Positions 35,575 to 63,473 of a stretch of DNA of 64,000 nucleotides are shown here, in pieces; the stretch's first letter is position 1, and each line of letters begins with the position of its first letter. A program made the position numbers and the translations under genes. This DNA comes from Halichondria panicea (taxonomy: Eukaryota; Porifera; Demospongiae; Suberitida; Halichondriidae), in NCBI RefSeq assembly GCF_963675165.1, contig NC_087377.1, positions 10,898,632 to 10,962,631 of the forward strand. The letters are read 5' to 3'. Below the pieces are notes generated by a model. It was not told where the DNA came from, did not search any database, and saw only the letters and a program-made list of their open reading frames with translations.

Positions 35575-37211
35575 TTCCCTTTCTTTTTCAGTACAAGTGG
35601 AACGTCAAGAGGCAGTACAGAAGTTCAAGAAGAGAAGACAGGACTAATCAGATATCTTCTCGAATATCTCTGGACTAATTATAATCATAGTAATGAGTAA
35701 TATTGCTTGATATGTTGAATTTGTGAGTCAGTATTAAATGACAGCCATTTTAAGAGCATGATATATAGCCAGTGCATATAGCATGCTTGTCAGAGAAAGG
35801 GAGCTGGAGCTGAACAGTGTGAAGAAAAGCAACACCTCAGGCTCTGGAAAAGCCTGCACTCATCACCCAGTGATTTTAGGCGCACGGTTTCTTAACCACG
35901 CCTATCTATTATTAATTTTGCAATTGTTGCTGAGTCATTAAAGATGGCGGAATTTTCTAGGTAAGAGAAATAGAGACTGAGAGGTCATCTGCCTCGTGGA
36001 AGCAATCGCAAATCTGAAGAAGCGCTTTGTAATCCAGGTTGTAGTCGTTTGGAAACCCTGTGCAGAATGTCCTGGAGAGGGCTGTACTTGGAGTAAATGC
36101 TGGGCAAGAAACTTACTTACTTACTCACTCACTTACTTAGTCAGACAACAAGAGGTGAAACATAGAAATAGTGCAATTTTTAAAATGACAATATTCATAC
36201 ATTTAAAACGTTCATGGTTATGAAATGAGAGATACAAAGAGAGAAAAGGCTAAATAAACTATCTGTCTATTCAGTTTCTTTATGTGGCCTTTCCCTGCAG
36301 AGATAGAACAGTTTGAACACAAGTCAAAATAAGTAAAATATTGCTAAACACGGGCAAACCCACTGCCAATCCTATGTAAAACCTACTGGTTTTACTAATA
36401 CTTGTAGCATTGCAGAAGCAGATTGCAGAAACTGCTTCTGAATGTAGATTATGTCGCCTTAAGGCAATCAAAATTCTGCACAAATAATAATGCAGGGGGA
36501 AATTAAAAACTGTATCTGGGTAAGGTTATCACAATTCACTGAGAAATTGTTTTAGGCTGTTGCCTGCTTCCAAAGATGATAGATTCCAGCTCATCTAACA
36601 AGGCATCTAACAGCCTTTCTTGAACTGCTCTAACTCCAAAGTTGCATCTAACGATGAGATAGCTTCTCCCTTATCGACACGTTAGGGGATGGAGCGTGCA
36701 GGTTCAGGGCAATGTCGGTGATCATTACCGGCTATCAAAGTCAACACCACGCTGTCAGACAAGCCATTGTAAAGCATATAAATTATGTGTGATTTCCAAC
36801 ATTAATTTGTCAATAATAAACACTGGTTGATGGATGTAGGTTACAATTAATGACATATGGAGTCCTACGTGAAGGACAAGCAAATGGACACAGCATATGC
36901 CTGGGGAACTAACTAGGAGCTCTTTGCATTGGCCCATATCTGCTCGGACGAAGGGTGTTTGTCTGCTCAACAATAGCACGCAATGCATGGCTGTGTCACT
37001 GTCCCAGCAAAATTGACCCCAACATCGCCCCTCCCCGGGACAAAAAGGGTCTGTATATACGTATCACACCAGGAGTGTAGCCAGGATTTTTTTGGAAGAT
37101 GGGGCAAACTTATCAGCCGCGCAGCGCCGAAATTTTGATCGGAAGCCACGCCTCTTAATTATGACGTCATAATTATTTAGTTGGGTGTGGCCTGATGCAT
37201 AGAAGAAGCTA

Positions 37212-40200
37212 CACAGCCAAAAATCCACGGGGCGTGTCAGGTCCGTTACATGTCCGTTACAGGACGTTGTGAACTTCCTGATACGGGACCGTTGGGTATA
37301 GACACTACTAAACAGGCCGGCCGTTCTAACAGGTGCTTCACATGCCGTTCTATCAGGTGCTTTACAGGCCGTTCTACAGGTGCTTTACAGGCTGTTGTGT
37401 TACCTATCATGCTATCATGATCATATTCAGCTACTGAATTGAGAAAACAATTGGCACACTTAAAATCTTTGAAGTGGTAATGACAATAGATATAAAAACT
37501 AAATAGGAAAAACTAAATAGAACTCATGCAGTATTGTTAATGCATAATGGTAATCGTGTTGTACTGAGAAGTACTTGTCAGTGTTTATCTCTTCCTTTTC
37601 TTTTGTGACTAAAGCTGTGGTAGTGATGGTGCAATTCTTGTTGCAGTCATGTACAATTGACACGGTCTTGATTAGGGTGAATCTTTATTAAGTGATTGGT
37701 TGTCTCCACTAGCTCACAATTTTGCTCGCTCATTCGTCCCACTTCCTTGTAGGGCAGCACCACCGCTACCTGCGTGTCGTCAGAAAACTTCAAAAGGGTT
37801 GTTAGTAGTCCATATGCAATCTGCAATGAGGAGACTGATGACAATGCAATAGTTAGTTGTGTTTTACCTTGTTATCATTTTCTCTTCTGTATAGGCCACG
37901 CTTTCTCCCAAGCTTCCCAACTTTCCGTCTATAGGTAAACTGATTTGTATATCAGCATCGGGATGTCTCTGTTTACACCTATGAAGAAGACATAGCCAGC
38001 CATTCTTAGTTCTCCTAGTGTTGTTTCCCCTTTCGGTAAACTGAACGTCACTTCTTTCAATGGTACTGCCTTAGACTGTTCCTGTAATGAAAATAATGTG
38101 CATTGAGCAATAGTACTGTATATACACTGTACCTTCCTCAGAGTTCCATGCTGGTAGATCTCCTTGGAAGAGTTGAGTGTGTGAGGGTGAATATTGAAGG
38201 CATACTGCCGCACTTCTTGAGAGGTGAGTAGCTAGATGGACTATAGATCATCTCCAATTCTAAGTGTGTGGGGAAAATAATCCATTTGATTAATTGATTT
38301 TATACTTAGGCCACATAACCCAGGCATATTCTATTAAAAATCGAAGATGGGAGGAGGCTTTTTTTCTTGGTAGGGCAAAAACTTCCGGCCACAACTTGGC
38401 CACTCCTCCTTACATGTCAGGAAAAGTACATACAAAAGTAGAAAAAAGAAAGGCACCATGTGAAGAGATGGTAATTAAACATGGCCATATTAAAGCAAAT
38501 AAAAGGATCCACGCATGTGGCCCATGAGGGGTCAAAAAATTTAGGCGGGAGGGCCTGAGAAACAAGTCATTAACTTTGTGTGGCCTTATGCCCAATAAAA
38601 CTAAAAGGTCCAGCTGTAGTGTATAAAGAGTACAAGTACATAATTATTATACTTTAAATGAATGCGTTATCTAGTCTGTTATACAATGTACCTTACTCTT
38701 ACTGTAGCATCTTCTGGTGCTACACCCTTGTTCACTAGGAAGTAGAGTTGCTCCATTACTGCAAATCTCTTGGCAATGTTACGACTCGATGACTGCCGAT
38801 TGGTGTGCAGGTTGTTGAGCTTCAATGGGGTTTTCTCTTGCATACTTTCTCTGTGCAAAAAGATTATAATTATGATGTTTCTTAAAACCCCTAAAGTCAA
38901 TTAATGTATACTCACTAGCAGGGCTAAATTATGGGTGTATGCTGTCTCGATCTCTCGGTCCATGGGAGCCTTCAAAGTTCTCACAGTCTCTTTGGCTAGG
39001 TTGCTAGGGGAAATCCTTTGTAAGGTTGGCAACCTAGCACCTATATAAAACCATGCTTTTGTGACAGCGTAATATTTTTTGTAACAGAACATATACCTTG
39101 CGCCTTTCATCGATACGCATGTCGCTCAACCTTTTTTGCACCATTTTAGAGTTATTGACAGTACCTCCGTGTCTGTCCTATCATCCATGTCCATACATAC
39201 TCTCATTTGTGCCTAGGTTTGTATAAATAACAATTCTGATTAATAACCTTGATGGCTTCGTCTCCTATTTCTCTACTTTCAGACATTAGGAATAGTTTAG
39301 CCAAATTCGAACTCAGAGAAACCTGCAATTATTGGATTATAATGTCAAGTTTTGAGAATGCTATCATGTACTTACACTCCACGACGTGCTTTCCACGGCA
39401 AAAACGTGAGAGTTTTTCTCAATCATCGTTTTTTAATGTGTCAATGGCCTTCTTGCTGTTTTGTTGTTCTTCTTGAACTTGTCTTAGTTTAGCTTTAATT
39501 TCCTTCAATTCCTTCAGCACTTCCTATGTGTTAGTAAAACTTAAAAATACATCAAATCACTGTCAGAATAGGATTGTGTGAGTGCTTGGTTGGGTGATTT
39601 GTGGAGGGTGCATTGCCTAGATGGTATAACCCCGCCATTAATCAGTTTTGTAGGAGCCAGTATACCCTCTGTATTTAACAAACATGTTGTCGATTGTATT
39701 GTGCACATATAGTTTATACCTTCTTTCTGTCTTGAATGACTTTGCAAGCAATGTCAAAACTTATGCTTGTGCTTAATTCACACAGAGCTCTCTCAACTGT
39801 GGTGGCTTCGATTTTGGCAGGTTCCAAACCCACAAAGTAAATTAGTACCAACGTTTTCCTACATTACGAATGTATTGTGTGCATTTGAGAAGGATACTTT
39901 TGTCACAATAAGCAATAATACTTACTTTCGTTCTTTTGTTTTGACTGTAGGTACGTCTGACGTCTTGAATGGAGCAGCAAATACCTGGCAAATGAATATT
40001 AACTACTGTGTATTCTATCTATAATTTTTACTTTAGATGTACTTGGAATGTTTGTATCCATATTCATTTGATTCATTAATGGTGTGGGTATGACAGCTGG
40101 AACTTGCCTCACCAAAAGTATGCACATGCTCAGTAATTATTATTATTAACGTGCCGTGTACAGGACGTGGTGGGTGCTACACCCTGATACAGGCCCGTAT

Positions 40201-40312
40201 TTACAGGCTGTAAACAGGATGTAGCCCCACGTCCTGATACAGGTCTGTTCACGGGCCTGTAACGGCCCGTTTTAACCTACGGCCTGAAATGGACTAGTGG
40301 ATTTTGGCTGTG
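37212..40312. mobile_element. 3.1-kb TA-inserted transposon with CACAGCCAAAA ends
   Basis: Ends CACAGCCAAAAATCCAC and GTGGATTTTGGCTGTG are flanked by TA on both sides (37210-37211 and 40313-40314). The relative at 62500-63473 has the uninterrupted AGCTAGTTT with one TA (62644-62645). Subterminal zones carry reiterated GTTCTACAGGTGCTTTACAG / ACAGGCCCGT motifs (about 37225-37400 and 40150-40290), possibly transposase-binding sites. It contains a multi-exon minus-strand gene rather than a recognisable DDE transposase. Confidence 0.85.
37647..40076 (-). CDS. Unrecognised 11-exon gene inside the 3.1-kb transposon
   Basis: Exons (transcript order) are 40032-40076, 39926-39984, 39720-39858, 39376-39523, 39248-39322, 39097-39212, 38916-39040, 38703-38850, 38133-38215, 37868-38081 and 37647-37820, about 400 residues in all. 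The start is MNQMNMDTNIPSTSK. Exons 3-4 hold a charged coiled coil (EVLKELKEIKAKLRQVQEEQ). Exon 8 has NIAKRFAVMEQLYFLVNKG and the last exon SDDTQVAVVLPYKEVG. Introns are GT-AG. Several exons stay open only with one-base shifts at homopolymers, notably A6 near 39417, A-runs near 39135-39150, C4 near 39011 and C4 near 38829. No family is recognised; it could be a novel transposase, an accessory protein or a captured host gene. Confidence 0.5.
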
Positions 40313-40703
40313 TAGTTTAGCAAAGAACAAGAACTGTCTATAGATTTAGACCAGAATTGCTCACAGTATAGGGACTAAATCGTTTTGCTTGCCTACTAGC
40401 TAGCTAACTGCAGCAAGATTCGGAAGAAAGGGAGTGCTCAGCAAGATAATCAGCTACACTAACCTGAGCTGAGTATAGTAAAGATCCAGAAAAAGGGGGG
40501 CATTTGCCCCCTTTCCTCCCCCTGGCTACGCCACTGCACACTGGTAACCATTACCAAGTAGTACAATCAGTGACATGTATGTGTAGAACTGTCCCGTTCA
40601 CTGTTTAACACGTACGTATACGTACTCTCTGTGCGTCGGTTGCCCGTGGTTGTTACGTACAGGAGACTAAAAAATCAAAAATGGTTTACTGGCCCATGCA
40701 CTA

Positions 40704-40874
40704 CCGTATAGCGGGTAATTTTCGTGGGGCAAAATATTCGTGGTTGGAGGTCTGACCACGAATATTTTACCCACGAATGAAGCGACCTTGTCTACCTTTC
40801 TGCAGTGCAAGCGGCTACCACGAATATTGCTGAACCACGAATATTTTGTCCCCCGAAAATTACCCGCTATACGG
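40704..40874. mobile_element. 171-bp CCGTATAGCGGG MITE, intact
   Basis: Nearly perfect ends CCGTATAGCGGGTAATTTTC and GAAAATTACCCGCTATACGG are flanked by TA (40702-40703 and 40875-40876). The interior has inverted CACGAATATTTTAC motifs. It is the cleanest member of the family in the window. Confidence 0.92.
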
Positions 40875-41630
40875 TATTGCATGCCGAGCCTATAAGAGTA
40901 TCTATTTGTGTCACTGAAAAGCGCGGTAAAAAAAGACTTTAAAGCTAACAAACACACAAACAAATAATCATGGGCAGCCACCTTTTTCATTTCGTTATTA
41001 CTTTTACTTAAACATTTTCTGTTGACTCCTCAATTCGGTAAGTGACAACGCAATTGACTGTGTGTGTTTATCCTCTGCAGGTAATGATGCATGTGAGCGG
41101 GGTGTAGAGCTCTAGGGCGATCATTTCGTTTAATTATCTAAGTAACTTTTAATGGTGGCAGATGTCGCAGCTATAGCTACTGTAGTACATTCAATCGATC
41201 GATCGCAACATTATGTTGTGGCCAATAATTATAATACATTATATAAGACAATAAACATTATAAGACAATATAAACAACAATAAAATAATAAGAATTGTAA
41301 ATGTTCACTTGACCGTGATATAATTATCTGTAAGGAAAGTAATAATTAATAATGCACATGCATGAAACAGATATTCACAAGAGCTAGACAGCTAGCTAAC
41401 ATTTACAGTCTTTTCGGGCCAGGGTACCGGTGGCAGCATTTGGGGTGGCCATGGCCCCCTTCCATGTCCTCCGCGGCCAGCTCCACGACGACGTCCACTG
41501 GCACCACCTCCACGCCCACGTCCCCTGGCCCTGCCTGCGCCTCTTCCTGCGGCCCGAGCCCTGGCGGTGAGCTGGAGGTCGTGGCAGTGGTGCAGGAGCT
41601 GCAGGAGGAGGCAGTATAGTCCTGCGGCTG

Positions 41631-42090
41631 GTGGTGGCAGAGGAGCTTGAGGTCGAGGCAGTGGTGCAGGAGCTGGAGCCAGTCCTGCGGCTGGTGGTGG
41701 CAGAGGAGCTGGAGGTCGAGGCAGTGCATGGTGCAGAAGCTGGAGCCAGTCCTGCGGCTGGTGGTGGCAGAGGAGCTGGAGGTCGAGGCAGTGGTGCAGA
41801 AGCTGGAGCCAATCCTGCAGCTGGTGGTGGCAGAGGAGCTGGAGGTCCGAGACAGTGGTGCAGAAGCTGGAGCCAGTCCTGCGGCTGGTGGTGGCAGAGG
41901 AGCTGGAGGTCGAGGCAGTGGTGCAGAAGCTGGAGCCAGTCCTGCATGCGGCTGGTGGTGGCAGAGGAGCTGGAGGTCGAGGCAGTGGTGCAGAAGCTGG
42001 AGCCAGTCCTGCGGCTGGTGGTGGCAGAGGAGCTGGAGGTCGAGGCAGTGGTGCAGAAGCTGGAGCCAGTCCTGCGGCTGGTGGTAGTGG
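41631..42090. repeat. 63-bp GC-rich tandem repeat
   Basis: About seven units of a 63-bp repeat (GGTGGTGGCAGAGGAGCTGG... GCCAGTCCTGCGGCT) in an otherwise AT-rich region. Read on +, each unit gives a Gly/Ala/Arg-rich 21-mer (GGGRGAGGRGSGAEAGASPAA). Read on minus it is proline-rich (PPAPLPPPAAGLAPASAPLPR). Small indels shift the frame between units. Flanking 41400-41630 is also GC-rich. The coding strand cannot be decided. It ends about 80 bp before duplication copy B starts. Confidence 0.85.
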
Positions 42091-62499: not shown

Positions 62500-63473
62500 G
62501 GAGCGTAGCCAGGATTTTTGGAAGAGGGGGCAAAACGTAGCAGCCGCGCAGCGCCGAAATGTTGACTGGAAGCCACACCTCTTAATTATGACGTCATAAT
62601 TGATTTCTCTATTTAGTTGGGTGTGGCCTGATGTTTAGAAAGCTAGTTTAGCAAAGAACAAGAACTGTCTATAGATTTAGACCAGAATAGCTCACAGTTT
62701 AGGGACTAAATCGTTTTGCTTGCCTACTAGCTAGCTAACTGCAGCAAGATTGGGAAGAAAGGGAGTGCTCAGCAAGATAATCAGCTACACTAATCAGGGG
62801 CGTAGCTACCATTGTTTCCTGGTTGCCCAGAAACCCCCCCAGGAGCTGCTGAGAAAATTGGGCAGGGCTCCCCAATAATTGAAATCAAGCAGCCCTGCCC
62901 ATCTTTTCATGCACGTGGCTGCAAATCATGTAGAGATAGCACCGTGAATCGTTTCACGTTGGCTAGCTTTGTCTCAGCTAGCTAGCTAGCTACCTCAAAC
63001 AAAGAAGACCAAGACTTAAGTTCTAGTATCAATCCTGCATGCTCCAGTATTCTCAGACTCAGCTCTAAGCACAACTTTATTCGATATTCAGGAAGGACAA
63101 GTTTAGAACAATCTCAGCCACATGAAACCTCTCAGGTAAATGTAATGGTGCTCAGCTAGACTAGCAATACACAATTGACACCTGCCTTTTAGAATGTCTA
63201 TAGCTAGCTAGACTAGCTAGTCTAGCTAGCTTCTCACAAACAAGTAAAAAAGTCATTACAAACAATGAGCAGTAGGTGTGCCCCAATCAAGAGGGTGTGG
63301 CACAGGAAGTGGGCGTGGCTAAAATTTCCCGGCGCTACCGCGCCGCTGGTTTTTCAAAGGAAACCCCTATGTCAAAAGTCTGGCTACGCCCCTGACTAAC
63401 CTGAGCTGAGTAGTAGAGATCCAGAAAAAGGGGGGGCATTTGCCCACTTTGCCACCCCCTGCCTACGCCACTG
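62500..63473. mobile_element. GTAGCCAGG-ended element, with nested CAGGGGCGTAGC element
   Basis: Same family as 37071-40536. The left flank CGACTT and right flank CGACTA suggest a short target duplication. It lies within the start of a long-inverted-repeat element continuing at 63474. It keeps the empty TA that the 3.1-kb transposon occupies in the other copy. Confidence 0.8.
62795..63394. mobile_element. 600-bp CAGGGGCGTAGC element (nested)
   Basis: Ends CAGGGGCGTAGC and GGCTACGCCCCTG lie between ACTAAT and ACTAAC. The relative at 40461-40478 has uninterrupted CTACACTAACCTGAGC. There is no coding capacity. Confidence 0.85.

Follow-up and report, generated by a model that had tools for sequence, protein, structure and literature searches.

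An intron-rich element inserted at TA in the sponge Halichondria panicea is very probably an internally deleted CACTA/EnSpm-like transposon

We analysed a window of Halichondria panicea DNA (the window is the whole stretch of 64,000 nucleotides) and found that the element with its TA flanks at positions 37210-40314, whose gene is read from the minus strand, is very probably the dead remnant, shortened by an internal deletion, of an animal-type CACTA/EnSpm DNA transposon (CMC/CMCT clade, Transposase_21). What made its gene look unfamiliar is the loss, in this copy, of the catalytic part of the transposase; most of that part is preserved in a fuller copy of the same genome, called L007. Judged by this core, the element would belong to the CMCT clade and presumably works like other members of it. 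If the family is a guide, complete members would encode, in a gene of many exons, a DDE transposase that binds the terminal and subterminal repeats, excises the element and inserts it at a TA. The window copy itself could be mobile only with transposase from another copy.

Ends, insertion sites and short relatives

The element is 3.1 kb long and is bounded by two terminal inverted repeats: CACAGCCAAAAATCCAC at 37212-37228 on the plus strand and, at 40297-40312 on the minus strand, the same sequence minus one A. A TA stands outside each of them (37210-37211 on the left, 40313-40314 on the right), just as an earlier note, which described a TA-inserted transposon with clear ends, had it. The subterminal repeats which that note had pointed out are also found: those of the left side, of the CCTGTA/CCGTTA type, extend approximately from 37231 to 37409 and those of the right side approximately from 40150 to 40290. 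Over the terminal 300 bp at either end of the window copy, the motifs number 6 + 6 against shuffle means of 0.39 + 0.43 (largest value 3), while the interior contains one motif against a shuffle mean of 1.76. The corresponding numbers in L007 are 5 and 3, the right end being weaker, with a count equal to the largest shuffle value.

The window element is inserted in a dispersed host repeat, another copy of which, at 62516-62765 on the plus strand, has a single TA and no element. When the joined flanks were searched in the genome, 43 match rows were obtained and 40 of the 258 candidates were scored; seven of the 43 rows were aligned, one for the copy at 62516-62765 and six for other loci, and all seven read through with a single TA, so that the empty site announced by the earlier note can indeed be demonstrated. 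Because the seven aligned empty sites carry one TA only, the target duplication of the element is TA. A TA is present at both sides in every one of eight further copies that have both ends.

The search for other copies by their ends, which had been proposed along with the element, was fruitful: when up to one mismatch is allowed, the 131-Mb genome contains 143 instances of the 19-mer TACACAGCCAAAAATCCAC (75 forward, 68 reverse) and, as a control, 0 of the same pattern read backwards. The exact sequence CACAGCCAAAAATCCACNNG has 120 sites, of which 100 were listed; the exact TA list includes 90 of these and lacks 10. Most of the relatives among the listed end sites are short, because 21 of 30 plus/minus neighbour pairs are only 1.8-2.0 kb apart; such short elements, numerous and sharing these ends, would be mobilised in the same manner, as non-autonomous companions. 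Two short elements with the ends of the window element (L040, C12:2197654-2200270, and L041, C6:2285253-2287667) are about 97% identical to each other and contain internal repeats some 105-115 bp long, a picture suggestive of fairly recent movement.

Beside the window element, at 40695-40883, we noticed two inverted repeat arms of 51 bp, 94% complementary and 87 bp apart, which look like another small transposable element.

The deletion and the transposase core

The copies obtained from genome searches are L006, L007 and the partial copies L008 and L009. L006 (C1:10892601-10898112) lies 42 kb upstream of the window copy and is 92-93% identical to it. Comparison with window positions 36897-41650 reveals a duplication: element and flanks are present twice, about 42 kb apart and at 93-95% identity. 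Since the flanks match as well, L006 is the same insertion, copied by segmental duplication. The left end of L006 differs and has no TA, and about 790 bp of other sequence precede it. L006 shares the core deletion of the window copy and has more lesions than that copy.

L007 is on another contig, measures 4565 bp, and is 88% identical to the window copy on both sides of about 1.43 kb present only in L007. At the junction, the six bases ACAACC occur once in the window copy and at both edges of the additional stretch in L007, and the 1.43 kb were thus lost from the window copy by deletion across this 6-bp microhomology. The converse, an insertion into L007, was ruled out: the 1.43-kb stretch, examined for terminal repeats of its own, has none, and the reading frames of L007 run on through it.

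The minus-strand exons of this stretch contain ICDNPRAS, HYCRICM, KFHLFLHLHE and ERCESFNGLM, and with them the second catalytic D, C(2)C, H(3)H and last E of a transposase core. The only Pfam match of the stretch is Transposase_21 (tnp2), with an E-value of 1.7e-5 and 24.6 bits against a cut-off of 28.6; a longer model of the L007 gene scores 22.4 bits and the exon of a relative, L022, 16.8 bits against the same cut-off. Four intronless ORFs of the same genome (L019, L033, L034 and L035, of 541-861 residues) pass the cut-off and are other EnSpm-like families. With hhalign, the core profile of L007, L022 and a further relative, R7, was linked to the profile of these ORFs with a probability of 98.5% and an E-value of 2.8e-15 over 308 columns, the profiles being small (3 sequences against 4). 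CDNP, CRIC, HLFLH and CESFNG of L007 are in register with the intronless ORFs at the second D, C(2)C, H(3)H and last E respectively. The genome relatives linked by profile have Transposase_21 scores of 45.5-76.4 bits, and this genome has 26 Transposase_21 matches against none in 14 control genomes. Intronless and intron-rich genes of the Transposase_21 type coexist in this genome, which could serve the study of intron gain and loss in transposases.

The first D, in a motif DDTSGN, was found in upstream exons of R7 and L022 only and is missing from L007. A 13-bp exon of our initial L007 model was dropped, as the frame fits only when it is skipped. Because L008 has a longer exon at this position, and R7 and L022 have the first-D exon there, L007 is itself internally deleted at that point; in the genome search the full catalytic triad was not found in any copy of the exact window family. 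Solved structures compared with the L007 core gave at best an E-value of 0.58 (single sequence) or 1 (profile), NCBIfam models matched the core at chance level only, and 37 pattern matches in viral contigs yielded 0 confirmed by tblastn.

The core of R7 is 53-55% identical, its 19-base ends are identical to those of the window element, and nested inside it is a further element having those ends. In a related element with identical ends (L025/L021, C7:6357246-6365632), which has a same-ended element nested inside, the open stretch just after the nested element contains a C2H2-like zinc finger, with a zf-met match there of E 4.2e-4 and 21.0 bits against a cut-off of 21.2.

The remaining exons and their origin

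Gene models were based on splice signals and alignment. About 12 exon-like segments of the window gene are left, all on the minus strand. They are exon 1, the first of the model (40032-40066), exon 2 (39926-39984), exon 3 (39720-39858), exon 4 (39376-39523), which has a 1-bp insertion relative to L007 plus a stop, exon 5 (39248-39322), exon 6 (39097-39212), with a 1-bp deletion relative to L007, exon 7 (38916-39040), with a 10-bp deletion, a fused exon (38697-38850) joining the start of exon 8 to the end of exon 13, out of frame at about 38810, and the C-terminal exons at 38133-38231, 37979-38081, 37868-37928 (with indels relative to L007) and 37647-37820 (the last, with a stop), whose limits were set by eye from the alignment. 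The lost 1.43 kb contained exons 9-12, together with the remainder of exon 8 and the beginning of exon 13. The earlier note had described an 11-exon gene: an intron-rich minus-strand gene is indeed there, but the "exon" at 38697-38850 is an artefact of the deletion and the frames are broken at other points as well. The segment 38321-38588, in the intron before the C-terminal exons, recurs at many genomic places where the remainder of the element is missing.

Compared with L007, exons 1-8 and 13 are identical at 802 of 841 positions (95.4%) and the introns at 458 of 502 (91.2%), and the exon mismatches fall 12/6/21 on codon positions 1/2/3. Because the exons are more alike than the introns and the mismatches are so distributed, the window exons must formerly have been coding. 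The gene is now dead: it has lost its core, carries two 1-bp indels and a 10-bp deletion, and has a fused exon out of frame.

Where do these exons come from? It had been suggested that the element is a non-autonomous transposon which captured a host gene with its introns, and the high number of introns, as well as the want of a catalytic domain in the window copy, would agree with this. The N-terminal 289 residues have 31 matches in the genome, and 26 of them are in the window copy, L006, L007 and L008; three are in related loci, namely one in R7 and two in L026, a relative in which one end is similar (2 differences); the last two are in a fragment, L012 (C1:5682449-5682614), beside which no element end was found. 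Thus the single-copy host homologue that had been proposed as a check did not turn up: none of the 31 matches is a separate conserved host gene with these exons outside the element, which for one genome is not a proof of absence. The C-terminal exons, for their part, recur in R7, L022 and L023, where they adjoin the DDE core. Because the N-terminal matches, apart from those in the fragment L012, lie in copies and relatives of the element and the C-terminal exons in R7, L022 and L023, both sets of exons are, on the evidence of this one genome, part of the transposon. Capture is therefore very unlikely; the element is non-autonomous, as had been supposed, but by internal deletion.

The other suggestion was a transposase family of a new kind, unrelated to known ones and encoded by the 11-exon gene as it is seen in the window. 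It is true that the window exons, taken by themselves, have no transposase model among their matches in a Pfam search (the best E-value, 0.012, is for an unrelated family of coiled-coil type). The catalytic exons are simply missing from the window copy, and in L007, another copy of the same element, they are present and Transposase_21-like; with the score of 24.6 bits and the link at 98.5% to ORFs above the cut-off, we hold an unrelated family to be extremely improbable. The element would be a new member of the known animal CACTA-like transposons, and a new transposase family is not supported. Caution is called for, since a copy with a deletion can be mistaken for a novel gene family as long as no more complete copy is known.

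There is next to no chance, finally, that the deleted copy was domesticated and that its leftover exons still make a protein useful to the host: the better conservation of exons than introns and the excess of third-position changes would fit this, but the conservation can predate the deletion, the window copy has the two 1-bp indels, the 10-bp deletion and the out-of-frame fusion described above, and the duplicate L006 carries the same core deletion and more lesions.

Comparison with known systems

Plant CACTA/EnSpm transposons resemble the preferred reading, a deleted CACTA-like transposon, in that their DDE transposase is encoded in several exons, and differ from it by ends of the form CACTA..TAGTG and a 3-bp duplication (PMC4158355). 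The element therefore falls outside CACTA in the narrow sense (CACTA end, 3-bp duplication), as it has a CACAG end and a 2-bp TA. The earlier note had held it to be unusually intron-rich for a transposon. Many exons are not unusual, because up to eleven are reported for maize CACTA transposases; the 64 transposases of the study itself have one to six exons (PMC4158355).

In animals and fungi, the TRC group of the CACTA superfamily is described with Transposase_21, 2-bp duplications and spliced transcripts (PMC1636069). According to the same description SmTRC1 resembles the window element by its Transposase_21, inverted repeats, 2-bp duplications (7 of 14 SmTRC1 copies), several exons and animal host; it has a 54-bp inverted repeat against 16-17 bp here, and the ends proposed for animal TRC begin with CCC, whereas ours begin with CAC (PMC1636069). 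Spongebob_HMa / EnSpm-4N1_HM of Hydra shares the 2-bp duplication, and its end CCCAGCCAACATTGAC resembles CACAGCCAAAAATCCAC by eye only, the first bases of the Hydra element being CCC (PMC4298943). ENS1_Cis, from a tunicate, and CMC-NA are CACTA-type with CAC..GTG ends and 2-bp duplications, a likeness which is one of description only; the CMC-NA elements differ in being short and non-coding (PMC6004678).

In fungi, the Plavaka and ESTA elements encode EnSpm-like transposases that contain C(2)C and H(3-4)H; the duplication is of 2 bp in PlavakaA and of TA in ESTA (PMC12730594). Plavaka ends, as given there, are TGT..ACA or CATCA..TGATG, against CACAG..CTGTG here (PMC12730594), and no match to a Plavaka model was listed in the Pfam search of the L007 stretch and the window exons. 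It is conceivable, if rather doubtful, that the element stands for a distinct, unnamed animal CMCT lineage with TA-specific insertion, CACAG ends, the first-D motif DDTSGN, a transposase gene of at least 13 exons (by the gene model) and long N- and C-terminal regions matching no described domain. For the CMC/CMCT group as a whole, which comprises EnSpm/CACTA-Mirage-Chapaev-Transib and relatives, the available description gives CA..TG ends with duplications of 2-5 bp and, in its definition of the CMCT clade, names C(2)C and H(3-4)H (PMC12730594); the CACAG..CTGTG ends and the TA of the window element agree with such ends and duplications.
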